From positions 1 to 45,545 of the IMG/VR virus record IMGVR_UViG_3300021961_000167: a DNA stretch of 45,545 bases. One strand, 5' to 3'. The stretch is from a virus. Shown here one piece after another: positions 2,511 through 45,545 of this stretch (position 1 is its first letter; every line of letters starts with the position of its first letter). The translations under genes and the position numbers were made by a program. The notes beneath the pieces are model-generated. The model was given only the letters and a program-made list of their open reading frames with translations, was not told where the DNA came from and ran no database searches.

Positions 2511-2515
2511 ATGGC

Positions 2516-2523
2516 TATAAATA
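2516..2523 (+). promoter_or_regulatory. T4-type late promoter for the sulfotransferase-like gene
   Basis: Exact TATAAATA. It lies inside the first codons of the longest frame (ATG at 2511). The predicted transcript start falls at about 2529, exactly on the next in-frame ATG, which implies a leaderless or nearly leaderless late mRNA. Confidence 0.65.
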
Positions 2524-2528
2524 ATGCT

Positions 2529-3236
2529 ATGTTGGTTAGTCATACACACAAATTCATTTATCTCAAAACACGCAAAACAGCAGGTACATCTGTAGAAGCA
2601 TACTTTGATCAATTTTGTTTACCGCCCAACGAACTGCACGGACAACATGATTTAGTTGGTAGACAAAGCAAATATGGTATATGCAGTGGACGTAATAATC
2701 TGACACACATAGAACCTAACATAGACGCAGATGTTCAAGCGTACAGTGTTTACAATCATATGACAGCCGAAGAACTTAAACAAGAATTAGGTAATGAGAT
2801 TTGGTCCAGTTATTTTAAGTTTTGTGTAGTTAGAAATCCCTGGGACAGAGCTATATCAATGTTTTGGTTTAAAGATAGTTTATTAAGATATAAATTAGAA
2901 CAAAATCCAGATTTATCGTTTGATGAAATTATAAAACAGTTTGAATATTGGTCAGGAACAGTTCCTAACAAACGATGGGTAGAACCAGATTACAATATTT
3001 GGTCTATAGACGGTCAATGTATTGTTGATGATGTTGTTCGTTATGAAACTATCAATGAAGACTGTGCTAGACTAAGTTTAAAGTTTGGTAAAGAATTTAC
3101 AGAATTGCCAAGATATAAAACTGAATCACGTAAACAGAAACATCCTTACCAAAGTTATTACACAAACCCAGAAGTGTTAGAAAAGTTAACAGAATTGTTT
3201 ATGCCTTACAGTAAGCAATTTGTATATACTTTTTAA
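2529..3236 (+). CDS. Sulfotransferase-like protein
   Basis: 235 residues from the ATG at 2529; a longer frame from 2511 adds six residues. The shorter start is preferred because the longer one begins right after a terminator T-tract with no Shine-Dalgarno, and the late promoter 2516-2523 would start transcription at 2529. The motif KTRKTAGTS near the N-terminus fits the 5'-phosphosulfate loop of PAPS-dependent sulfotransferases. VVRNPWDRAIS about 80 residues later fits the 3'-phosphate site, with its Arg and Ser. The family transfers sulfate from PAPS to carbohydrates or proteins. In a phage, a role in modifying host or virion glycans is a guess. The length is normal for the small single-domain members. 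Confidence 0.85.
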   Translation: MLVSHTHKFIYLKTRKTAGTSVEAYFDQFCLPPNELHGQHDLVGRQSKYGICSGRNNLTHIEPNIDADVQAYSVYNHMTAEELKQELGNEIWSSYFKFCVVRNPWDRAISMFWFKDSLLRYKLEQNPDLSFDEIIKQFEYWSGTVPNKRWVEPDYNIWSIDGQCIVDDVVRYETINEDCARLSLKFGKEFTELPRYKTESRKQKHPYQSYYTNPEVLEKLTELFMPYSKQFVYTF

Positions 3237-4101: not shown

Positions 4102-5115
4102 TTACCATTCAGTTGCGTAGTCTAAATTGACTACTGACATATTACATTTAGTCTTACATTCCACCCAGGGGAAAATTTCAAACCGTTCTTCCCAGAATTT
4201 ATCTTCAAGAACCTCTGTCAACGCCCGTTTATTAAGGTCAAAACTATTACTCAGTTCAGACCATTCATTATTATGATTGTACCTATTTGCTACCCAACAA
4301 CAAGGAAGTAAACGACCTTGACTGTTTAGGAACAAGCCTTTATTGCCAATACTACATAAAGGTTTGATGTCTCCATAGGTTTTAGATTTTTCGTATAATT
4401 CAACGTTGGTTTTGTAACCTACTGTGCTAGGCTGTCTGCCTGATAGGTTAAGGACTTCACGTGTAAATCTATACTTATCGCTGATATTAGGAGTACTAGG
4501 TTGTAGTGGATCGTTTTTAGGGTATATAGGATATACCTGATTAAATTTTGTACTACGAGTTATTTGAAATTCATCAAACCCTAGGTGCTCAGCCTGTGCT
4601 TTCATAGTATCTAGGTGTTCTTCGTTAAATTTAAACACTATACAATCCCAAGTCATGTATACATCGCTAACCTGTCTAAGTGTTTGTACACCTAATATAA
4701 TACTGTCCCAATTAGAGTTTACTCTATACTGTTCGTTACTTGCTTGGTCCCAGCCATCTAAACTAAAGTGTATGTGATCATTTTCATCTAATACACTACC
4801 AAGTTGAAGCCACCAGTCTGCTTTTTTGTAACTACCGTTAGTAACAATAACAAACTTAACTGGTTTAATTGATTTAAAATATTCAATAACATCAACAAGA
4901 TCGTGTGCATATATAGGATCTCCGTCATCACCACAGAATGTAATCTTTTCTACATTGTCACGTATAAAGTCAGGAGTAAAATTCTTTTTGAAAAAGTCAA
5001 GTCTAAGCTCAGTATTAACTAATGTTTCTGGAACTTCTTCTCTAGCACACCTAGGACACTTTAGTGTACATTTACTAGATATTTCTATATGCCAATGCCA
5101 GGTTGCTAGTTTCAT
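4102..5115 (-). CDS. Radical SAM protein (first of an adjacent pair)
   Basis: 337 residues. The cluster C16-TLK-C20-PR-C23 binds the 4Fe-4S cluster that cleaves S-adenosylmethionine. FCGDDGDP supplies the GGE-like SAM-binding segment, and HFSLDGWD a further core strand. A C-terminal region with C-SIGNKG, then LLPCCWV, then CKTKC looks like a SPASM/twitch-type auxiliary cluster domain, as in peptide- and protein-modifying enzymes. The ATG overlaps the stop of the upstream radical SAM gene (ATGA), so the two are probably translationally coupled. It sits in the recombination/early operon. The substrate is unknown. Candidates are a small peptide, a host protein or a virion protein; nothing in the sequence decides this. 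Confidence 0.88.
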   Translation of the reverse strand: MKLATWHWHIEISSKCTLKCPRCAREEVPETLVNTELRLDFFKKNFTPDFIRDNVEKITFCGDDGDPIYAHDLVDVIEYFKSIKPVKFVIVTNGSYKKADWWLQLGSVLDENDHIHFSLDGWDQASNEQYRVNSNWDSIILGVQTLRQVSDVYMTWDCIVFKFNEEHLDTMKAQAEHLGFDEFQITRSTKFNQVYPIYPKNDPLQPSTPNISDKYRFTREVLNLSGRQPSTVGYKTNVELYEKSKTYGDIKPLCSIGNKGLFLNSQGRLLPCCWVANRYNHNNEWSELSNSFDLNKRALTEVLEDKFWEERFEIFPWVECKTKCNMSVVNLDYATEW

Positions 5116-6008
5116 TTAAATTCAACCTCGTGTTGCCATTGTCCTGTAAAACTAGTAACTTCTTCAACAGATCTACAAGTTGTATAACACATATCGTTGG
5201 GTTGGTCAGTTTTCCAAGATTGTTTAATAGTTTCAAATTGATCAATAGAATTATCTGTAATACCCAAATAACAACAAGGATATATAACACCTTCTGCTGA
5301 CATGTATCTACTTTGTTCGTTTAGTGCTTGACAGGAAATATTACCAAACCTTACTGTTGGATTTTTCCAACCTTTTGGTGGATTTAAAAACTTAACAGGA
5401 TTAATTTCATGGCGTCTAGTAATTTTAGCTCTAAACCATTTAAATCCTAAATCACGTGCTAGTTGTTCACACGCATTAACTTGATGTTCGTTGTGTTCAA
5501 ACACTAACATATCCCAATGAGCTCGACCTCCAGCTTTGATAAATGTCTGAGCATTTTCAATAACTTTATTCCAATTTACATTTATCCTATAGATATGGTT
5601 AGTGTCCTCTAGTCCATCAATACTGAACACGCTGTAATCTTTTTCAGTATTTAATATGATACCTAATTCATGCCACCAATCCTGATCACGCAGTCCGCCG
5701 TTAGAATTCATTCCTAAACTAATACCTGGATTAACTGTTCTAAAGTAACGATAAATGTCTAATGTGTGTTTGCCAGCGGCTGGATCACCATAATCGCCAC
5801 ACATAAACATTTTGTCTAAGTTACTGATAATGTCATCACCTAACTGTTTACGTATTTGCTCTATAGTTAAATGATGTAGATTTTTTTTATCAAACGATGT
5901 ATCTGTTTCTCTAGAACATTGTGGACAAGCCGCATTACACGCATCTGTGGGTTCTAGGTGTAATATTTTAAACGGAGTCAACATCTGTGCCATATGTAGT
6001 AAAGCCAT
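5112..6008 (-). CDS. Radical SAM protein (second of an adjacent pair)
   Basis: 298 residues with C24-NAA-C28-PQ-C31, the radical SAM cluster motif. MCGDYGDP is the SAM-binding segment, FSIDGLED a core strand, and the C-terminal VIYPCCYLG plus later MCYTTC is a likely auxiliary cluster domain. It is clearly related to its downstream neighbour, with the same CGDxGDP and CC arrangement, so the pair arose by duplication or works as partners. The longest frame overlaps the 3' end of gp46 by 41 nt. Internal ATGs at residues 6 and 9 give smaller overlaps, and the strong homology-like region begins only at about residue 11, so the true start may be MLTPFK. No strong Shine-Dalgarno distinguishes them. 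Substrate unknown. Confidence 0.86.
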   Translation of the reverse strand: MALLHMAQMLTPFKILHLEPTDACNAACPQCSRETDTSFDKKNLHHLTIEQIRKQLGDDIISNLDKMFMCGDYGDPAAGKHTLDIYRYFRTVNPGISLGMNSNGGLRDQDWWHELGIILNTEKDYSVFSIDGLEDTNHIYRINVNWNKVIENAQTFIKAGGRAHWDMLVFEHNEHQVNACEQLARDLGFKWFRAKITRRHEINPVKFLNPPKGWKNPTVRFGNISCQALNEQSRYMSAEGVIYPCCYLGITDNSIDQFETIKQSWKTDQPNDMCYTTCRSVEEVTSFTGQWQHEVEFK

Positions 6009-7737
6009 TTTCTTTTGTAACTGTCATAATATTGTTAACTCGTCCTGACAGTTCGTCTTTGTGCGATACTAACCAAATACTCTTGTTTTGTTCACGTGAC
6101 ATCTTTTTAAGTATTGCAAGGGCACTTTCTACACCACTAGCATCCATACCTGAATCAATAAGTTCGTCAATGAATAACAAGTTAATAGGGTCGTAGAGGC
6201 TTTCATAGACATCTCTGAAACTCCATGACAGTGAAAGTATCAGTCTATTACGTTCACCTCTACTTAAATTGTCAAAATCTAACTCACGGCCAAGCTCTGT
6301 AATTTCCACTGACAGATCGTTTAGGAAGGTAACTGTGTGTGGCAGTCCGATTCTGTCAAGGTAATAACTTAGCCGTGCGTTTAGATAACTGAGATTTTGA
6401 TCAATTATTCGTTTTCTAATAAAGGAGTCTTTATTAGTTAATAGTTTTTGTAAAAATTCTTGATGTTCTCTTAGTTTAACTAGAACATTAATTTCATTAT
6501 AGTCTGGGTCTTGTGTTGAACTTTCTTCCATTTCTTGTATTTGCTCAACATAAGGATCTTCTTCTTGTTCTTTTGATGTTAATTGTGCTTTTAGTGTAGT
6601 AATTGAATTTTTATGTTCAAAAGCATCTGACTCGTTAGCATAAAAAACTTCAGGAGCAAAGCCTACGTCACCAAGCTCTGTTAATGCGTCTGTGAGTTGC
6701 TGTAAGGTCGCTGTGTGCGTGTTTACATCTTCCTGCACCCTGACTAGCGTGGCTTGTTTTTCTTCTAGCTGTGCTTCGTGTTTGTCGTCGTGTATTTCTT
6801 GTCCACAACTATGACATTTATGTTCTTTTAGTAACTTGATGTCTTGTTCTAATTTAACTATGTTGCCTTGTTCACGCTTAAGATCACGCTCTGTTCTCGT
6901 AATAGCATCAGTGATGTCATCATGATCTTTTTTGTTTTGTTTAAATTTGGTTAATTCTTTATGACTTGCTAGTTCTTGATCAATATCAATCTTTTCTAAT
7001 TTTTCAATGGCCGCATTTAAACTATCTATGTCTTCTTGTTTTTTGTTAGCCCATAGAGTCTGTCTACGCTTCATTGACTCTACTTGTTCTTTCATTTTTT
7101 CATTAGCATCTTTAAGAGCTTCAATTCTTATTTCTTCTTCTTTAATCCTATCTCTGGTTTCTTTTAACCGTTCTTTAAGATTGTTTGCTTTTTCTGAAAG
7201 TAAGGTAATACCTAATAACTGTTCAATAATGTCTTTTTGATCGTTTGCTCTTAGATTAAGGAATGGTTCTGTGTAAGTGTTTAATGCTACTAAATGCTTG
7301 AACATCTCATGACTCATGCCCAGCATTGATTCAATAGCTTTTTGTGTTTCTCTACTATCGCCTTGTGCCATGTCTGTGATTTCTTGTTCTTCATCACCTA
7401 CATAAAAACGCATAACATTTTTCTTACGCCCACGCTCTATTTTATATGTTTGTCCATTGTGTTCAAAGTCAAGACTAACTAACATGCCCTTTGCGTTAGT
7501 TTTGTTGATTAAGTTATCACGTTTAATGTTAGTTAATGCTTGACCAAATAAAGCATAAGAAAGGGCATTGATGATAGTGGTCTTACCGGTACCATTCCTA
7601 GCGCCACTATCATCGCCTCCAAGGTCAATGTTAACACCAAGAACCAGTGTTAAGTCTCTGCGATCAAAGTTAACTGCTTGTGTGGCATTACCCACACTCA
7701 TAAAGTTTTTAACTGTTAGATTTTTTAGTTTGAACAT
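5968..7737 (-). CDS. 46: Recombination endonuclease subunit gp46 (Rad50/SbcC-like)
   Basis: 589 residues with the full SMC/Rad50 layout: Walker A GARNGTGKTT (about 45-54); a long coiled coil interrupted near residue 306 by the zinc hook CHSC; the ABC signature LSRGERNRL (about 490); Walker B LLFIDEL with D-loop SGMD (about 517-527); and the switch histidine in LVSHKDE (about 557). With gp47 it forms the ATP-driven nuclease that processes DNA ends for recombination-dependent replication and host DNA breakdown. The length is normal for T4 gp46 (560 residues). Two SGNH-like genes separate it from gp47. Its start overlaps the preceding SGNH gene by 29 nt. Confidence 0.96.
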   Translation of the reverse strand: MFKLKNLTVKNFMSVGNATQAVNFDRRDLTLVLGVNIDLGGDDSGARNGTGKTTIINALSYALFGQALTNIKRDNLINKTNAKGMLVSLDFEHNGQTYKIERGRKKNVMRFYVGDEEQEITDMAQGDSRETQKAIESMLGMSHEMFKHLVALNTYTEPFLNLRANDQKDIIEQLLGITLLSEKANNLKERLKETRDRIKEEEIRIEALKDANEKMKEQVESMKRRQTLWANKKQEDIDSLNAAIEKLEKIDIDQELASHKELTKFKQNKKDHDDITDAITRTERDLKREQGNIVKLEQDIKLLKEHKCHSCGQEIHDDKHEAQLEEKQATLVRVQEDVNTHTATLQQLTDALTELGDVGFAPEVFYANESDAFEHKNSITTLKAQLTSKEQEEDPYVEQIQEMEESSTQDPDYNEINVLVKLREHQEFLQKLLTNKDSFIRKRIIDQNLSYLNARLSYYLDRIGLPHTVTFLNDLSVEITELGRELDFDNLSRGERNRLILSLSWSFRDVYESLYDPINLLFIDELIDSGMDASGVESALAILKKMSREQNKSIWLVSHKDELSGRVNNIMTVTKENGFTTYGTDVDSV

Positions 7738-8440
7738 ATTCGTACATTAAATTGGCCATGTGTTGATGGCCTTCTTCTAAGAAGTGTCCTCCTAGTCCTG
7801 TAGGAAACTGTTGACATAATTGTCTAAGATACCACATATCGTTATTTGGACTATAAAATTTACTCCAGTCTATTAAGCTATAATAATAATGTATTTCTTC
7901 CACTTCTGCAAGTTTTTCGGCATCAGACTTGTGTTCTAACACGCGAAAATCTTTAAGATATTGCAGTATAGGACTTGCCTTCCAAAGTTGTATCATACCA
8001 TCGAACGTATGAATCATTAGATAGTTTTTATCTTTTAATAAATTCTGACAGTGTATTATCTGCTGTAAAAAACGTTTAAAGTTGTACTGACTGTTACACC
8101 ATTCAGCATATAAAGTTCTACCCCAATCCCAGAAGAAAGGCTCTTTGCCAAACACAGGATGATGTAATGTAGGAACAAATGCTACTTCTTCTTCAGATTC
8201 GTCAGCACGAACAAATGTATATCTTCCTGGCTCACTCCAGGATATAAAATAAAAATCAAAGTCTTTGGCAAAGTGTCTTGTGGTATGAAATAAGATACGC
8301 TCATTGCTAGAACCACTCATTGAAGTGTCTACCATTTCTGCACCAAGTTTTTTTGCCAATAAGTTAGGCCAACTTGAAACAGTACGATCTTTTAATTCGT
8401 CGCCGTAGGTAAAACTATCACCAGTTACATATATTTTCAT
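7709..8440 (-). CDS. SGNH-hydrolase-like protein A
   Basis: 243 residues. GDSFTYGDEL at 7-16 supplies the nucleophile-type Ser9 of the GDSL/SGNH family. SGSSNERI supplies a block III Asn (residue 46). Near the C-terminus LEEGHQHMA supplies an acid and the catalytic-type His225. Family members remove acyl groups from lipids, polysaccharides or peptidoglycan; others are inactive. It is paralogous to the next upstream gene, which it overlaps by four bases (ATGA). Its 3' end overlaps gp46. The position between gp47 and gp46 is unusual because these normally act as one nuclease. Activity and substrate are not shown by the sequence. Confidence 0.75.
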   Translation of the reverse strand: MKIYVTGDSFTYGDELKDRTVSSWPNLLAKKLGAEMVDTSMSGSSNERILFHTTRHFAKDFDFYFISWSEPGRYTFVRADESEEEVAFVPTLHHPVFGKEPFFWDWGRTLYAEWCNSQYNFKRFLQQIIHCQNLLKDKNYLMIHTFDGMIQLWKASPILQYLKDFRVLEHKSDAEKLAEVEEIHYYYSLIDWSKFYSPNNDMWYLRQLCQQFPTGLGGHFLEEGHQHMANLMYEYVQTKKSNS

Positions 8441-9186
8441 TGGTTTTTATTATAAAAGTTAATTAATTTATCTGCAATAGCATTGTGCCCATCTTCTAAA
8501 GGATGTCCACCTTTACCAAATTGAAACTCTTTGTTGCAATCAGTAATGCACCATTGGTTAAAATCTAAATAATATGAATAATCAATCATTGATAACAGTG
8601 TTTGTATATTATTATATTCAGCAAGTATTTGATCATCATTGAGATAATCAAAAAAATCTAATAATGGCTTAACATTAAAAATAAATTTATCTTTAGGACT
8701 AGTCCATTTTTCTAAATTGTTTTCTACAGCATTCAACATAATGTATTTTTTATTTTGTTTTTCAAAAACTGACTGTAAAAGTATTATTTCTTGTAGCCAT
8801 TTTTTAAATTCATATAACTCATTATGCCAATGTGTGTAATAAAGTTTTCCATAATCATAATATTTTTTATAGTTTTCTTTTAAATCATTACTTAAATGTA
8901 AAGATGTTTCTAAATTTAAGTTAGGAGTAAAATTAATTTCAAAATTATCTACAGGATTATATTCAGTAAATCTATTATAATTGGTCCAGGCAATTATAAA
9001 GTATTCATACTCATTTAAATTTTGTACTGTACGGTATACAATTCTTTGATTTGATCCTCCAGACTCTGCATCATTTACAAACTCTAATCCAAGTTTTTTA
9101 GACATCACTGCCGGAAATGCTGTTGTTTTTGGATCAGTTAATTCATCTCCTTTGGTAAAACTACATCCATTAAAATATAATTTCAT
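8437..9186 (-). CDS. SGNH-hydrolase-like protein B
   Basis: 249 residues, sharing with protein A the same frame of motifs: GCSFTKGDEL (Ser9; Cys replaces the usual Asp before it), SGGSNQRI (Asn46) and GGHPLEDGHNAIAD (His234 near the C-terminus). The two are diverged tandem copies. The middle part is unusually rich in Lys, Asn, Tyr and AT-rich codons compared with neighbouring genes, suggesting faster divergence or separate acquisition of this copy. Its ATG overlaps the gp47 stop by one base (TAATG), so it is coupled to gp47. Hydrolase activity is inferred from the family only. Confidence 0.72.
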   Translation of the reverse strand: MKLYFNGCSFTKGDELTDPKTTAFPAVMSKKLGLEFVNDAESGGSNQRIVYRTVQNLNEYEYFIIAWTNYNRFTEYNPVDNFEINFTPNLNLETSLHLSNDLKENYKKYYDYGKLYYTHWHNELYEFKKWLQEIILLQSVFEKQNKKYIMLNAVENNLEKWTSPKDKFIFNVKPLLDFFDYLNDDQILAEYNNIQTLLSMIDYSYYLDFNQWCITDCNKEFQFGKGGHPLEDGHNAIADKLINFYNKNQ

Positions 9187-38952: not shown

Positions 38953-39933
38953 ATGGCATATACCGCAGGCGATACAATACTAGATGACGAATATAACACG
39001 TTTGTCACAGGTGGTGCAGACGGAACAGCAACACATTCAGTTGCCAACGTAAACTCAGTATGGGGCACAGGTTCAGCAGATAAAGGTTGGGGTCAGTCGT
39101 CAACTATCTCAGCAGTGTCACAAGGCACAACAATTACTGCAACACAGTGGAACTCCTTTTTAGGACGTATTGAAACACTTGGTGCACACCAAGGTACTAC
39201 AGTAACAGATTATACTACATTAACATCAAGCGATCTAGTTGAAGCATATTCAACAGTATCAACAGATTTAACAAACGTATATAACAACAGATTTAACTGT
39301 GCCGCTGTCGGTACAGGTATTAACAGTTCAGCTTCAAGAACTACAAGTTGGACAACATCAGTTAATACAACACAACAATTAGCATTTTCAAGTGCAGACA
39401 CGCTACGTTATTTCTTTAACGCAGGTGGTACAGTGAGATTATCATTTAGCCGTTCAGGTGGTACATCAAACAATAAAAACACAGAATGGACAGATTTATG
39501 CTCACGTGCAGGTACAGTTTGGTTCTCTGGTTCAGCTAGCCACACTGTTGCTGGTCAAGCATTAACAGGTACAACTAAAGTTGGTGGTAACACAGGTGGT
39601 ACAGGTTCAGCAGTTTCAAATGTTGACTTCCACGATTTAACAGGTAGTTTCCAACAACTCTTTATTCAGTACGCTGACACAGCACCATACACAGCTAACT
39701 ACATTAAAGTAGAAGCACTAGTTTCAGGTGGTAACATTCAGTTTAGAACAACATTCCAAGATGATGCGGCTGATACAGGTAACCCAGCTCACGTATTAGC
39801 AGGTACCAACCCAGCTTCATTGGACATTGTAGACGGTACACTAACAGTATCAGTAAGTGCTGTTCCACCAGCAACTACTTATATTGCTAATACATGGGGA
39901 ACTCCAGCTTGGACTACTCCAGACGCACTATAA
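38953..39933 (+). CDS. Tail-fibre-like virion protein
   Basis: 326 residues, rich in Thr, Ser, Gly and Ala with few charged residues, as in beta-rich virion appendages. The N-terminal part (IGDTILDDEYN-like AGDTILDDEYNTFVTG, KGWGQ, TATQWNSFLGRI) matches proteins next to tail fibres in marine T4-like phages. The middle carries LRYFFNAGGTVRLSFSRSGG, and the C-terminus ends with short Pro/Thr-rich strands. It starts 24 nt after the fibre gene with TAGGA as ribosome site and ends before a terminator, so it closes the tail block. It could be a receptor-binding tip or a fibre decoration; the sequence does not say which. Confidence 0.78.
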   Translation: MAYTAGDTILDDEYNTFVTGGADGTATHSVANVNSVWGTGSADKGWGQSSTISAVSQGTTITATQWNSFLGRIETLGAHQGTTVTDYTTLTSSDLVEAYSTVSTDLTNVYNNRFNCAAVGTGINSSASRTTSWTTSVNTTQQLAFSSADTLRYFFNAGGTVRLSFSRSGGTSNNKNTEWTDLCSRAGTVWFSGSASHTVAGQALTGTTKVGGNTGGTGSAVSNVDFHDLTGSFQQLFIQYADTAPYTANYIKVEALVSGGNIQFRTTFQDDAADTGNPAHVLAGTNPASLDIVDGTLTVSVSAVPPATTYIANTWGTPAWTTPDAL

Positions 39934-40018: not shown

Positions 40019-40318
40019 ATGGACAATCTATCTACAACAATTAAAAGACGTTTCGATCACGAAGCAAGTAAGCAGGCTCTGAAAGAAAAGTATCAAGCAA
40101 AATTGATATTTGCTCATCAAGGAGGCATGTTCCGTGCTGGCCCTGAACTGATAACATTATTAAACAGTCTAACTCTGGATACACCAGTTATAGTTGATCT
40201 ATATGATACACCTGTAACTGTAGATAGAGTTCAGCTGTTAGAGGATACAGTACAGCGTTGGCAAGAACAACTGAATGCTTGGCAGACAGAATTGAGCGAA
40301 TTATCAAGACAGCGATGA
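40019..40318 (+). CDS. Small protein of unknown function, first gene of the glycosyltransferase/radical SAM cassette
   Basis: 99 residues from the ATG at 40019. A longer frame from 39956 would run through the terminator and is rejected. Residues 1-35 are basic and helical, the middle is hydrophobic with QGGMFRAGPELITLL and IVDLYDTPVTVD, and 70-99 form a Gln/Glu-rich helix suited to coiled-coil assembly. Similar small proteins occur near fibre genes in other marine T4-like phages without an assigned role. The stop overlaps the start of the first glycosyltransferase-like gene (ATGA), so translation is coupled. Upstream, TAAAAT at 40008-40013 is a possible weak -10, but no clear -35 or Shine-Dalgarno is seen. 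Confidence 0.75.
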   Translation: MDNLSTTIKRRFDHEASKQALKEKYQAKLIFAHQGGMFRAGPELITLLNSLTLDTPVIVDLYDTPVTVDRVQLLEDTVQRWQEQLNAWQTELSELSRQR

Positions 40319-41073
40319 CCCGTGGAGTACTATTTTACGCATTTAACAACGAATCAACAGACTACGAAGCAATAGCAAAGTGGAATGCTGAACGTGTTAA
40401 AAAGTATCTAGGTTTACCTAGCACTATTATTACGGATAAAACTTTAGCAGAATCAGGTGGACAACGTTTAATGCACCCTGGTGTTGATCTAGAAACAGTT
40501 ACTTGGTTAAACGCAGGTAGACATGGTGCTTATGAGCATACACCCTATGACGAAACAATAGTATTAGATGTAGACTACATTGTTAATTCAGATCAACTAC
40601 TAAAGTTATTTGATACAGATAAAAGTTTTTTAATACAACAACGTGTACATGATGTTACTAATAGAAATGATTTCTTTGCACAAACAACATTTGGACAACT
40701 ACAGTTTCCGCAGTCATGGGCAACAGTAATTTACTTTAAAAAAGATGAACGTGCAAAAGAAATATTTGACTTTGTACGTATGATTAAAGAAAACTACAGT
40801 CACTATGCTGAACTGTATAAGTTTGCACATAAGCCGTTTAGAAACGACTATGCGTTTAGTATAGCACTAACAGCACTTAGTGGACATACTGTAACAGATC
40901 AATACTGTATACCTTGGCCATTAACAACAAGTTCACATAATGTAGATGTTAGTGTAGAAGATAATAAGATACATTTAGAATATAAAAAGAATGATAAACC
41001 TATGCGTTTAACAATACAAGATCAAGACCTACACGTGTTAAACAAAAAGACACTGGAGAAGTTATTTGGATAG
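40315..41073 (+). CDS. Glycosyltransferase-like protein A
   Basis: 252 residues from the ATG at 40315, whose ATGA overlaps the preceding stop; the longer frame from 40258 is an artefact of the overlap. The fold pattern is GT-A-like: GVLFYAFNNESTDYEAIAKW, an acceptor-loop region, then TIVLDVDYIV with a DxD motif (85-87) that would bind metal and nucleotide sugar, and PQSWATVIYFKKDERAKEIFDFV. FRNDYAFSIAL fits a late substrate-binding helix. It is paralogous to the next gene (both have HxxYDETI/FHETI followed by an acidic DxD-type motif). The sugar and acceptor are unknown. Confidence 0.72.
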   Translation: MTRGVLFYAFNNESTDYEAIAKWNAERVKKYLGLPSTIITDKTLAESGGQRLMHPGVDLETVTWLNAGRHGAYEHTPYDETIVLDVDYIVNSDQLLKLFDTDKSFLIQQRVHDVTNRNDFFAQTTFGQLQFPQSWATVIYFKKDERAKEIFDFVRMIKENYSHYAELYKFAHKPFRNDYAFSIALTALSGHTVTDQYCIPWPLTTSSHNVDVSVEDNKIHLEYKKNDKPMRLTIQDQDLHVLNKKTLEKLFG

Positions 41074-41842
41074 AGGATACTTAATACCAGCACAAGGTCA
41101 GCAGTATCATCAGTGTGCTAGAGCTTTGGCAAAAAGTATCAAGTACTTTATGCCCGAAGCCAAAGTTGCTACTGTTGGTGACTGCGAAGATCCTATATTT
41201 GATCAGTGTATTGAGTTTAAAGATCCTGAACCAGGTATGCGGAATGATTGGCAAATATATAGATTGTCACCATTCCACGAAACAATACGTTTAGAAGCAG
41301 ATATGATTTTAAACGGAAGTATAGAACATTGGTGGACAGAATTTGAAAAGCGTGACGTTGTAGTAGCAACAGGTACTAAAGATTTTTATGGAAATAAAAC
41401 ACAGGTAAGAAAGTATAGACGTCATTTAGATCAAAACTACTTACCTGATGTTTATAATGCTGTAACGTATTGGCGTAAAAGTAAACTAGCTCTAGACTTT
41501 AGTCGCACAGTTAAAATGCTGTTTAATTCTTGGGGCGAAGTTAAACGTGGACTTGTTGGTTGGGATAATACAGAACCAGACACAGATACAGTATATGCTA
41601 TTGCAGTTAGAATGATGGGACAAGAACAATTTACACTACCAACAGCACCTAAGTTTGTGCATATGAAAGGTGGTATAAACTATTGTTGCGGAGAAGATTG
41701 GACTAGAGAACTTGTTTGGGAGTTAACAGAACAAGGACTTAGAATTAATACTATACAACAAACTAATCCTACTCACTATTACATTAAAAGTTTTAGTGCA
41801 GTATTAGAGGAACACTATGACAAACTTTTGGCAAGCAAGTAA
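41066..41842 (+). CDS. Glycosyltransferase-like protein B
   Basis: 258 residues with a TTG start (41066-41068) overlapping the previous gene by 8 bases. GGAG, 8 nt upstream in CTGGAGAAG, supports it. GYLIPAQGQQYHQCARALAKSIK matches the first strand and helix of GT-A enzymes. FHETIRLEADMIL carries an E-A-D motif (77-79) in the place of DxD. VYNAVTYWRKSKLALDF and PKFVHMKGGINYC are typical later elements. The motif order is that of glycosyltransferase-like proteins in cyanophage and marine bacterial surface-sugar clusters. The first acidic residue is Glu, not Asp, so activity is uncertain. It follows protein A closely and probably arose from duplication. Confidence 0.7.
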   Translation: MDRGYLIPAQGQQYHQCARALAKSIKYFMPEAKVATVGDCEDPIFDQCIEFKDPEPGMRNDWQIYRLSPFHETIRLEADMILNGSIEHWWTEFEKRDVVVATGTKDFYGNKTQVRKYRRHLDQNYLPDVYNAVTYWRKSKLALDFSRTVKMLFNSWGEVKRGLVGWDNTEPDTDTVYAIAVRMMGQEQFTLPTAPKFVHMKGGINYCCGEDWTRELVWELTEQGLRINTIQQTNPTHYYIKSFSAVLEEHYDKLLASK

Positions 41843-42140
41843 ACAACATAAAAAAATTGTTAGAATAGAATCTGAAAATAGATTATATTACGATGATGCC
41901 GGGCAACCTATTACATATTCACAAGAAGACTTACCTGGTAATTATGTTGTAGTTGATCAACAAACATTTAATGAATGTAGAATGGATGTTAGAGTAGTAG
42001 ATGGCAAAGTTACAAGACCACACATGATTACAGAGTTTCGTAAACTAGTACCTGCAGACGAAGGTACTGAAACACTAGTAGAAGATATTACAATAGTAGG
42101 ATACGGACAGCACTGGAAAACAAAATACTATGCAGATTGA
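41817..42140 (+). CDS. Small protein of unknown function within the glycosyltransferase cassette
   Basis: 107 residues, not recognised. It overlaps the end of protein B by 26 nt and the start of protein C by 11 nt. The sequence is predicted beta-rich with QEDLPGNYVVVDQQTFNECRMDVRVVDGKV in the middle and ends in an aromatic WKTKYYAD. Its compact, charged make-up and embedded position suggest a partner or chaperone of the neighbouring enzymes, but nothing in the sequence shows this. ATG at 41817 is preceded by AGAGGAA, a good ribosome site. Confidence 0.7.
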   Translation: MTNFWQASKQHKKIVRIESENRLYYDDAGQPITYSQEDLPGNYVVVDQQTFNECRMDVRVVDGKVTRPHMITEFRKLVPADEGTETLVEDITIVGYGQHWKTKYYAD

Positions 42141-43023
42141 TGTAGCAGATTTAGATGTAGTTTACCTTAGTTACGATGAACCTCAAAAAGAAGAGTTCTG
42201 GGTAAAAATTAAAAACATGGTGCCTTGGGCTACTCGTGTTGACGGTGTTAAAGGAAGTGATGCCGCACACAAAGCCGCGGCTGATGCTAGTACTACAGAT
42301 AGATTTATTTTAATAGATGGCGACAACATGCCAGACCCAAACTTCTTTAATCTAACATTTGACTTAACAGATGAACAATATGAACAGGCAGTGTTTAGAT
42401 GGAGAGCTCGTAATCATATCAATGGATTAATGTATGGTAACGGTGGGCTTAGTTCATGGACTCGAGACTTTGTTTATAATATGAGAACACATGAAAACAG
42501 TCAAGGGGATGCTGAAACTAATGTAGAGTTTTGCTTTGATCCCTTATACTGGCCCATGCACGATTGTTATTCAACTACATATCCTAATGCTACTCCTTTT
42601 CAAGCCTGGCGTGCTGGTTTTAGAGAAGGTGTTAAGATGTGTTTAGACAGAGGGCGTAAGCCAACTATAGAAGAATTTAAAACAGCAGTACATCATCGTA
42701 ACTTAGATAACTTACAGATATGGCACAACGTAGGTCGAGATGTTGAAAATGGTATATGGGCTATAGCAGGCGCTAGACAAGGCACTGTTATGACTATGTT
42801 AAGTGACTGGGATCACACGCAAGTGCAATGGTTTGATCATTTAGAAAAGTTATGGAGTGAAATGCAGTCAGACGATCCTGAGGATACAGCACGGGAAATT
42901 GCCAATGACCTACATAGATTAGATATAGATGTGGTGGAATTAGATCAAGAACAAAGTAAATTTTTTAAACGTCATTATAGATCAAACTGGTGTAATCAAG
43001 GACCAATGGTAAGAGAACAGTGA
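42130..43023 (+). CDS. Glycosyltransferase-like protein C (GT2-type)
   Basis: 297 residues. DVVYLSYDEPQKEEFW, VPWATRVDGVKGSDAAHKAAAD and FILIDGDNMPDPNFF (DGD at 63-65) follow the nucleotide-sugar-binding half of GT-A family 2 enzymes. RWRARNHINGLMYGNGGLSSWTR and a C-terminal helical part (roughly 165-290, with FQAWRAGFREGVKM) complete it. Similar proteins are commonly annotated as glycosyltransferases in marine phages and cyanobacteria. Its stop TGA overlaps the GTG start of the next radical SAM gene. The acceptor may be a virion or host surface glycan (inference from the cassette). Confidence 0.78.
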   Translation: MQIDVADLDVVYLSYDEPQKEEFWVKIKNMVPWATRVDGVKGSDAAHKAAADASTTDRFILIDGDNMPDPNFFNLTFDLTDEQYEQAVFRWRARNHINGLMYGNGGLSSWTRDFVYNMRTHENSQGDAETNVEFCFDPLYWPMHDCYSTTYPNATPFQAWRAGFREGVKMCLDRGRKPTIEEFKTAVHHRNLDNLQIWHNVGRDVENGIWAIAGARQGTVMTMLSDWDHTQVQWFDHLEKLWSEMQSDDPEDTAREIANDLHRLDIDVVELDQEQSKFFKRHYRSNWCNQGPMVREQ

Positions 43024-44450
43024 GTAAACAAAACAAAGGTGATGAAGTAAACAAAGACTTTAAGTCTAAGTTCTTAAGTGACGCAGAAGGCATGAAGGAA
43101 CAACTAGACACAGTAAGTCCTAGCATGTGTTTGGCTAAATGGAAACAGGTTAGCCTACATCTAACTACTGGCATGACTAACTCATGCTACCACCCACCAT
43201 TACATGATATACCTGTAGAGCCATTGACATTCCATCCTAGTGCTTTACATAATACAGCACACAAAAAACAACAGCGTAAACTAATGCTTGAAGGCAAACG
43301 CCCAGACGAATGTAGTTACTGTTGGACTATAGAAGACGAAGGTAAACTAAGTGATAGACACTATCGTTCAGGCGAACCATGGGCCGCAGAAAGTTTTAAA
43401 GAAATAGTAGATGCACCATGGGACCAGGACATTACACCAAGTTATGTAGAAGTTAATTTTAATCACAACTGTAACCTAAGATGTAGTTATTGTAGTCCAC
43501 AATACTCTACTGCTTGGGAAAAAGAAAGTGAAGAGTTTGGTAGTTGGCCTACATCCACTCCCCATAATGATCCTGCTTACTTCAAAGGGAGACGTAGGCC
43601 AATTCCATTTAGAGAACACAATCCATACTTAGAAGCATTTTGGAAATGGTGGCCAGACTTATATCCAGAGCTAAAGCATTTCCGTATGACAGGTGGCGAA
43701 CCTTTAATGGATAAGAATACTTACAGAGTTTGTGATCATGTGTTAGCAAATCCTAAACCAGACTTACATTTAAACGTAACAAGTAACTTTAGTGTAGATG
43801 AAAAACTATGGCAAAAGTATTTAGGTTATGTTAAGCAGATATGTCAAGATGATAACGTAGAACATTTTATGCAGTATGTAAGTATAGATGCTTTTGCTGA
43901 ACGTGCTGAGTATATTCGTGATGGTCTAGACTATGAATTAATGTGGGATAGGGTAAATCAGTTTTTAACAGAAGTGCCTGAACGTTCAAGCATTACGTTT
44001 ATTATTACAATGACTAATTTAAATGTAACAAGTGTAGGTAACTTATTAGCAGGTATTAACGGACTAAGACAAATATATTCAAATGATTATCAACGTGTAT
44101 GGTTTGATACTCCACTGCTACGTACTCCTGAATGGATGCGTATGGACTTACTACCCGAAAGTTATGCTGACGAAATGGAACTGTTATGGGCTTGGATGTT
44201 TAAGTGGAGAGAAACAGAAGAGAATAGATTTAAAGGATTTAAAGACTACGAATTACAAAGATGGGATAGGGATATTGCCTGGATGCGATCAGGTCAAAAA
44301 CACGATGCTAAATACCTCGCAAAACAAAAAGCAGATTTTTATAGATACTTTAGTGAACACGATAAAAGGAGAGGCACTGACTTCTTAAAGACATTCCCAG
44401 AAATGTCTGCCTGGTGGAAGGAGTGTGAACAACATGCCAAAAAAGCATAA
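43020..44450 (+). CDS. Radical SAM protein with N-terminal twitch-like cysteine domain
   Basis: 476 residues from a GTG start at 43020-43022, overlapping the preceding TGA. The radical SAM motif C151-NLR-C155-SY-C158 and RMTGGEPLMD (SAM-binding GGE segment) are clear. In front of the core, residues 45-105 hold a separate cysteine set: C56-YHP, then LHNT, GKRPDEC98-SYC101-WTIED. In most SPASM/twitch enzymes the auxiliary cluster follows the core; here it precedes it, a layout known in twitch-domain radical SAM proteins of marine T4-like phages. It is closely related to the next gene. The substrate is unknown; the adjacent glycosyltransferases suggest sugars or a glycosylated peptide. Confidence 0.87.
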   Translation: MSKQNKGDEVNKDFKSKFLSDAEGMKEQLDTVSPSMCLAKWKQVSLHLTTGMTNSCYHPPLHDIPVEPLTFHPSALHNTAHKKQQRKLMLEGKRPDECSYCWTIEDEGKLSDRHYRSGEPWAAESFKEIVDAPWDQDITPSYVEVNFNHNCNLRCSYCSPQYSTAWEKESEEFGSWPTSTPHNDPAYFKGRRRPIPFREHNPYLEAFWKWWPDLYPELKHFRMTGGEPLMDKNTYRVCDHVLANPKPDLHLNVTSNFSVDEKLWQKYLGYVKQICQDDNVEHFMQYVSIDAFAERAEYIRDGLDYELMWDRVNQFLTEVPERSSITFIITMTNLNVTSVGNLLAGINGLRQIYSNDYQRVWFDTPLLRTPEWMRMDLLPESYADEMELLWAWMFKWRETEENRFKGFKDYELQRWDRDIAWMRSGQKHDAKYLAKQKADFYRYFSEHDKRRGTDFLKTFPEMSAWWKECEQHAKKA

Positions 44451-45545
44451 CGAAACAGATCAAGAATATAAACGCAGAGTCATTGACATTAAGAGTGAAA
44501 GTTTCTGCGGTGCTAAATGGTACAATGCTACTATATGGCTTGGTTCAGGACAAACTACTAGTTGTCACCATCCTTTACCACATCAAATTGATATACATGC
44601 TGTAGAGGATAATCCTAAACTGATACATAATACACCTGAAAAGAAAGAACAACGTAGACAGATGCAGGTAGGTGAGAGACCAGCAGGCTGTGAATACTGT
44701 TGGAAGATTGAGGACATGGGCACTGATAAGATATCAGACCGTGTTGATAAAACTAGAATATACACAGACGAGGAATTAGATGAAGCCTACAATACCCCTT
44801 ACACACAAGATGTTAACCTTAGAACTTTGGAAATTGCATTTGATCGCACTTGTCAGTTGGCCTGTAGTTATTGTAATCCTGCTTTTAGCTCTACATGGGT
44901 TAAAGACATACGTAATAATGGACCCTACAATAACTTGGTCAGTGACGGCCGTAACCATTTTACTCATAGGCATGATAGTAGTCAACTGTTTACTATCCAT
45001 GATCGCAATCCTTATGTTGAAGCCTTCTTCAAATGGTGGGAGTCAGACCTACACAAAACACTAACCGAATTACGTATAACTGGTGGCGAGCCACTAATGT
45101 CAGGATACACTTGGCAGTTGTTTGATTGGTTTAAGGCTAACCGAGGCAAGAGTAAGACACGTATAGCAGTTAACTCAAACCTAGCATTTGATAGAGACAA
45201 GATAGATAGACTGCTAGAAGCCGCAAAAGATGTTGAACTAGACTTGTATACAAGTTGTGAAGCAACATTTGAACGAGCAGAATATATTCGTGATGGATTA
45301 GATTATAACCAATGGTTATCCAATGTTGAATATTTGTTAGAAAGTAAAAAACTTAGAGGCCTACACGTGATGTGTACCATCAATAGTTTATGTTTAATCA
45401 GTTTGCCTAACTTCTTAAAACATATTATATATCTAAAGAAAAAGTATGGGCAAGATGCAATTAACTTTACCTTGAACATCCTACGCTTTCCTAGTTTCCA
45501 AAGCCCATTGGTATTACCCAAAGAGTTTAGACAGGCACAGGCCAA
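44434..45545 (+). CDS. Radical SAM protein, paralog of the preceding gene (3' end beyond window)
   Basis: About 370 residues visible from ATG 44434, which overlaps the previous gene by 17 nt and has AAGGAG about 10 nt upstream; the frame is open to the window end. It repeats the preceding layout: N-terminal C44-HHP, LIHNT, then C86-EYC89-WKIED; then the core C140-QLA-C144-SY-C147, and RITGGEPLMSG. Two such enzymes in tandem may act in sequence or as partners. Function as for the previous gene: radical chemistry on an unknown substrate. Confidence 0.86.
   Translation, partial: MPKKHNETDQEYKRRVIDIKSESFCGAKWYNATIWLGSGQTTSCHHPLPHQIDIHAVEDNPKLIHNTPEKKEQRRQMQVGERPAGCEYCWKIEDMGTDKISDRVDKTRIYTDEELDEAYNTPYTQDVNLRTLEIAFDRTCQLACSYCNPAFSSTWVKDIRNNGPYNNLVSDGRNHFTHRHDSSQLFTIHDRNPYVEAFFKWWESDLHKTLTELRITGGEPLMSGYTWQLFDWFKANRGKSKTRIAVNSNLAFDRDKIDRLLEAAKDVELDLYTSCEATFERAEYIRDGLDYNQWLSNVEYLLESKKLRGLHVMCTINSLCLISLPNFLKHIIYLKKKYGQDAINFTLNILRFPSFQSPLVLPKEFRQAQA

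Follow-up and report, generated by a model that had tools for sequence, protein, structure and literature searches.

Phage glycosyltransferases (GTs) are usually read as modifiers of DNA or of the host surface. The GT8 folds and the family of radical S-adenosylmethionine (SAM) proteins dealt with below are already known, as are cassettes joining GT and radical SAM genes near fibre genes in aquatic T4-like phages. In pelagimyophages, GT8 genes of the host-recognition region, next to tail fibres, have been read as O-chain modifiers, and radical SAM cassettes lie in the same region; no module of five radical SAM genes is described in the part of that account considered here, and the comparison is one of descriptions, not of sequences (PMC7029224). 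This work deals with a gene cassette at the end of a 45.5-kb fragment of the IMG/VR virus record IMGVR_UViG_3300021961_000167 (positions 1 to 45,545; the window hereafter means this whole stretch). Seven genes encode GT-like and radical SAM proteins, and in related viruses the cassette continues into a larger module in which five paralogous radical SAM genes follow each other in a fixed order, the whole being tied to one fibre gene, named c4. Neither an ordered module of five such paralogs with N-terminal twitch (N-twitch) domains, nor its tie to a single fibre gene, nor a copy of it in a bacterial genome was found described in the literature, and a literature search combining twitch radical SAM proteins with phages returned nothing.

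The late sigma factor, baseplate, wedge and giant structural genes of the window match jumbo T4-like phages, among which Atu_ph07, Phosso, the PA5oct-like Paride and Rak2-type phages, all at less than 60% identity. The matches indicate an uncultured lineage of jumbo T4-like (giant aquatic) phages related to Atu_ph07, PA5oct and Rak2-type phages, in which respect the virus differs from pelagimyophages. A gene for a giant protein of 4,954 residues is followed by c8 (PHROG 11259), c2 (a Peptidase_G2 fibre), the fibre-type gene c4 and the seven cassette genes, as listed here.

38953..39933, plus strand: c4, Ser/Thr-rich tail-fibre-type protein of 326 residues, the proposed acceptor
40019..40318, plus strand: SM, small conserved protein of 99 residues between c4 and the GT genes
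40315..41073, plus strand: GTA, GT8/GT-A-like protein, paralog of GTB, with invariant D88-x-D90
41066..41842, plus strand: GTB, GT8-type glycosyltransferase fold with invariant E77-A-D79 (PHROG 1903, unknown function)
41817..42140, plus strand: UNK, fast-evolving small protein of 107 residues
42130..43023, plus strand: GTC, highly conserved GT-A-like protein with invariant D63-G-D65
43020..44450, plus strand: RS1, radical SAM enzyme with an N-terminal twitch domain
44425..45543, plus strand: RS2, second N-twitch radical SAM enzyme, cut by the end of the window

The seven genes with overlapping ends announced by the original prediction are all there, on the plus strand from 40019 to 45543, directly after the fibre block. 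Overlaps occur at all six junctions in the window, and in relatives at every adjacent pair surveyed (67 SM-GTA, 72 GTA-GTB, 55 GTB-UNK and 36 UNK-GTC pairs, 100% in each case). From the sequence, the best start of GTA is the ATG at position 40315, giving a 4-nucleotide overlap with the SM stop; a TTG at 40258 was discarded as too early. RS2 starts at 44425 (GTG) or 44434 (ATG), and 373 of its approximately 450 residues fall inside the window. SM and UNK have no match in Pfam, PHROG or NCBIfam.

A scan of viral contigs identified at least 599 stretches encoding relatives, of which the best 80 loci were kept. In these the order is c4-SM-GTA-GTB-UNK-GTC-RS1-RS2-RS3-RS4-RS5-c10-carbamoyltransferase. 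The cassette had thus been recognised correctly but understated: it is the front part of a larger module, and the two radical SAM genes described at the outset, both genuine, are followed in relatives by RS3 to RS5, c10 and a carbamoyltransferase (PF02543/PF16861), all beyond the cut at the window end. No family and no solved structure was matched by c10. The radical SAM genes of the 80 loci fall into five orthologous clades, RS1-RS5, met in fixed order; exactly the series RS1 RS2 RS3 RS4 RS5 is found in 32 loci, and most of the others are cut short or carry an extra copy. Variable inserts sit at three places (GTC/RS1, RS1/RS2 and RS4/RS5), and encode an NDP-sugar epimerase, a cytidylyltransferase, a B12-binding radical SAM protein, a nucleosidase-like protein (PF01048) and, as judged by eye, other GT-looking proteins (c7, without a Pfam match) and the SGNH-looking c12. 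About 10 loci have the PF01048 gene between RS4 and RS5 (e.g. L049:15274-15840). Removal of 5'-deoxyadenosine is established for methylthioadenosine/S-adenosylhomocysteine nucleosidase; by analogy the PF01048 gene may serve the clearance of this product, and its location among radical SAM genes hints indirectly at active radical enzymes.

The gene-neighbourhood survey, proposed with the original prediction as a check, was also anchored on the backbone gene c8, so that loci were not selected for radical SAM genes. Among the 59 assessable loci, 56 have c4, SM, GTB, GTC and radical SAM genes, and two more are complete up to GTC, with no radical SAM gene within the available stretch. In one locus (L270) c8 and c2 are followed only by GTC, and c4, SM, GTA, GTB and all radical SAM genes are missing together.

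The radical SAM enzymes are the most firmly classified members of the set. NCBIfam family NF033640 (N_Twi_rSAM, twitch domain-containing radical SAM protein) has a curated cut-off of 170 bits; RS1 scores 313.3 and RS2 263.4 bits, a second profile search agrees, and by these profiles both are taken as true N-twitch radical SAM proteins. Auxiliary cysteines had been placed at the N-terminus, and this is where they are, except that they number four instead of three: C37, C56, C98 and C101 (RS1 numbering) precede the CX3CX2C motif C151/C155/C158, and all seven residues are 100% kept in all five paralog groups. In the sequence the first two are spaced C-x13-G-x4-C, in agreement with the SPASM/twitch pattern. 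Pfam SPASM (PF13186) maps onto the N-terminus of RS3-RS5, over the cut-off in RS3 and RS5, and no conserved C-terminal cysteine cluster, of the kind that a C-terminal SPASM/twitch domain would bring, was found in RS1-RS5. Since a review places SPASM/twitch-type domains only C-terminally (PMC8326336), the N-terminal position was rightly judged odd; the NCBI family name tells that it is nevertheless a known type. What sets the locus apart from other NF033640 proteins, with which it shares family score, N-terminal twitch cysteines and CX3CX2C motif, is the presence of five diverged paralogs in fixed order, which share a cassette with GT genes downstream of a fibre gene.

Among the GT-like proteins, GTB is the best defined. 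Pfam gave no match even with E values of up to 1 allowed, and a profile search gave only a weak match to glycogenin (E 0.75). The predicted structure (predicted local distance difference test, pLDDT, 93.4) matches glycogenin at E 3e-8 by Foldseek; in the VIA comparison GlyE is best (Z 15.3, root mean square deviation 3.5, 207 residues), with glycogenin tied and LARGE1 next. The model can be assigned with confidence, over its whole length, to the GT8-type GT-A fold of glycogenin/LgtC type. GlyE is an enzyme that lengthens the O-glycans of a serine-rich adhesin. GTB shares with GlyE and glycogenin the fold (Z 15, whole length), but differs in having about 10% identity, no Pfam match, and a metal-type motif beginning with Glu. 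It is a predicted glycosyltransferase, which would transfer sugar from a nucleotide sugar. GTA and GTB, said to be paralogs, are indeed so, remotely (hhalign probability 98.7%, 17% identity), and GTA retains a DxD motif. GTC had been called GT2-like. The Pfam GT2 scores, 12.1-12.5 bits, stay below the cut-offs of 23.3 and 27, and the model (pLDDT 77) is weaker than that of GTB. The protein is highly conserved (mean column identity 74%), has the invariant DGD motif, and may be classed, weakly, as GT-A-like.

The link to c4 bears on the target. In 75 of 76 loci the gene immediately before SM is a member of the c4 family. Ser and Thr make up 29.5% of c4, the highest value among the families measured (9-21% in the others), and the only conserved feature of its tail is WGTP-like, and may be structural. 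Co-divergence was assessed by partial Mantel analysis in 32 non-redundant loci. Divergence of GTA follows that of c4 with c8, c2 and SM controlled (partial r 0.49, p 0.0002); GTB (0.27), GTC (0.29) and RS1 (0.17, p 0.015) do so more weakly. SM, which sits between c4 and GTA, gives 0.13 (p 0.07) with c8 and c2 controlled. Exchange of the whole block is alone an unlikely source of the signal, because GTA tracks c4 whereas the intervening SM hardly does. The linkage to c4 favours the fibre over the host surface as target.

Relatives occur in bacteria as well. Since an alignment of all five radical SAM groups was too diverse for genome scans, RS3 was used as query, and 185 relatives were identified in bacterial genomes. 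One bacterial contig (genome G044; L197, C21:123000-139884) carries c4, SM, GTA, GTB, a small gene, GTC and two RS genes in the phage order, near pheS-pheT, with matches as strong as E 1e-41 for c4 and 4e-19 for SM. The genome shares its order with one of Bacteriovoracaceae; the stretch lacks c2, c8 and c9, the baseplate wedge protein of the window is unmatched in the whole genome, and the block may be a prophage remnant. A chromosome contig of Bacteriovoracaceae (L098:6040-18036) hosts eight clustered N-twitch radical SAM genes in the neighbourhood of obg and rsfS-like genes. Some copies fall with phage RS1, with RS4 or, in two cases, with RS2, and for others the closest phage groups are RS5 and RS3; these types lie together on one contig, as in the phages, but without GTA, GTB, GTC or a fibre gene. 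GTC-like genes stand alongside N-twitch radical SAM genes in four bacterial genomes. Pfam scans of the cellular neighbourhoods revealed no single dominant function. Four further bacterial clusters (L193-L196) combine several radical SAM families with GTC-like genes and genes resembling HTTM proteins, pyridoxal phosphate enzymes and 2-oxoglutarate oxygenases. Contigs of metagenome-assembled genomes labelled Rhodobacteraceae (L128) and Flavobacterium (L094) contain genes of this phage lineage; they are probably misbinned phage contigs, more clearly so for L128 than for L094, and neither served as cellular evidence. As a cellular parallel, Bdellovibrio with its mosaic adhesive trimer fibres was likewise set aside, as the paper mentions neither radical SAM proteins nor glycosylation.

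Fibre-directed glycosylation combined with multi-step radical tailoring is the best-supported reading of these data, though its probability is set somewhat short of an even chance. We infer three points: c4 as the acceptor, an O-linked sugar, and a common product on which the radical SAM enzymes also act. In the model proposed, GTA, GTB and GTC would attach a glycan to the Ser/Thr-rich fibre protein c4, with SM perhaps acting as a fibre accessory or scaffold. The glycan or the adjoining backbone would then undergo radical steps carried out by RS1-RS5, for example epimerisation, dehydration or cross-linking, and groups could be added or trimmed by the carbamoyltransferase and by the other GTs, SGNH hydrolases and epimerase encoded in the variable inserts. 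The outcome would be a receptor-binding or shielding surface with changeable chemistry. The dedicated modification pathway of the original prediction is in line with the fixed order, the GT8 fold of GTB, the N-twitch enzymes and the carbamoyltransferase; of the two targets it offered, virion fibres and host surface, linkage to c4 favours the former. It is proposed more tentatively that a five-enzyme N-twitch pathway acts on the fibre glycan or backbone and that a related module, fibre gene included, has passed between phages and Bacteriovoracaceae-related bacteria.

Several points weigh against the fibre as target. Both glycan and modified residue are predictions from the genes. Richness in Ser and Thr is widespread in phage fibres, and the Pseudomonas phage Paride has a c4 homolog and no cassette, hence the fibre can function unmodified. 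The structural matches of GTC are weak (Z <=7.3, Foldseek E 0.09), and are mostly to GT-A and nucleotidyltransferase folds. GTA was found in only 1 of 369 bacterial genomes, G044, on a contig ending just past the cassette. N-twitch proteins score over the cut-off in 31 of the 57 genomes of the order including L098, often in many copies, and the cellular genes are mostly located away from any c4-type fibre gene. Finally, the isolate Vibrio phage K566 counts on both sides: four N-twitch radical SAM genes reside there among GT-looking genes and a gene for a Ser/Thr-rich fibre-like protein, which speaks for the fibre, but PagP and an LpxC-looking gene adjoin the cassette (L092:22023-23289). K566 and KVP40-type genes were matched by the diverged RS3; RS1 and GTC found no match by tblastn in 50,697 isolate phages, and a K566 radical SAM query none in viral contigs.

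The neighbours of the K566 cassette are what would be expected if the enzymes altered lipopolysaccharide or capsule of the host, blocking the adsorption of competing phages, and if adjacency to fibres merely reflected a shared host-interaction region. This is a serious rival, ranked next after fibre modification, and on balance unlikely. Pelagimyophage GT8 genes have been read in this sense, in a region which hosts radical SAM cassettes, in the part of the account considered (PMC7029224). Carbamoyltransferases are found near N-twitch genes in five cellular loci, and related GTC-like and radical SAM genes form bacterial clusters devoid of fibres; modification of the host surface or of other glycans is kept alive because some of its components function in cells lacking fibres. 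Yet host-surface modification alone would not predict the strict coupling of c4 and SM, the excess co-divergence of GTA and c4, or a bacterial block retaining c4 and SM, and in the core of the cassette neither a flippase nor a polymerase could be recognised.

Alternatively, radical SAM enzymes could modify a virion polypeptide directly, introducing epimers, thioethers or C-C links, as in ribosomally synthesized and post-translationally modified peptides (RiPPs), and GTs would add sugars. This is improbable for the window lineage, and finds its best case in Atu_ph07 (Agrobacterium) and Phosso (Sinorhizobium). At the same genomic site, behind the giant structural protein, c8 and c2, these phages carry unrelated rSAM/SPASM genes, which resemble PapB/DynA maturases at about 45 bits, far under the cut-offs, and lie beside genes for another fibre-like protein.

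L086:21119-22009, minus strand: fibre-like protein with Cys/His tail, Atu_ph07
L087:22345-23265, plus strand: fibre-like protein with Cys/His tail, Phosso

The two proteins end alike, in CH(S/T)SCHASCH(N/S)SRSRR, possibly a RiPP-like modified virion tail. The Phosso protein, sought in viral contigs, found no match. The radical SAM sets of the window and of Phosso/Atu_ph07 are however of different families, c4, c2, SM and UNK of the window lineage showed neither a Cys/His-rich core peptide nor any other conserved one, and Pfam gave RS1 and RS2 no peptide-recognition domain. The C-terminal cysteine cluster of a SPASM/twitch domain, a mark of radical SAM systems for RiPP maturation, was likewise not found in RS1-RS5. 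A pathway for small molecules or nucleotides with no tie to fibres (deazapurine-, viperin- or molybdopterin-like) is very improbable; an unrelated nucleotide pathway had been named beforehand as what would refute the prediction. In its favour are the radical SAM core, which such families have in common, and weak matches to structures of viperin, MoaA and cytosylglucuronate decarboxylase; against it, scores are far below the cut-offs of QueE (TIGR03963, 29.1 and 13 bits for RS1 and RS2 against 260), MoaA (TIGR02666, 32 bits for RS1 against 284) and viperin (NF038283, 14.7 and 13.4 bits against 180), and the genes are linked to a fibre.

A sulfotransferase and an SGNH pair had been assigned to the same pathway. 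The genes are real (sulfotransferase at 2511-3236, PF03567, 42 bits; SGNH-like pair at 7709-9186, DUF6071 with weak GDSL), but reside 30 kb away, outside the conserved module. A second pair of radical SAM genes, at 4102-6008 on the minus strand, scores 28-30 bits to NF033640, far under the cut-off; it adjoins an SbcC-like AAA gene, the SGNH-like pair and a metallophosphatase, and only SbcC/SbcD-type genes are found there in the relative Paride.

The large and functionally blank family of N-twitch radical SAM proteins gains in c4 a concrete, testable partner. Isolated phages are available as starting points, among which the Vibrio phages K566 and KVP40/nt-1, with Phosso and Atu_ph07 for the parallel case. 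If fibre modification is correct, giant phages would modify their own receptor-binding parts by a chemistry known from antibiotics and RiPPs. The surface chemistry of virion fibres would then not be set by amino-acid sequence alone, with consequences for the understanding of how phages recognise their hosts.

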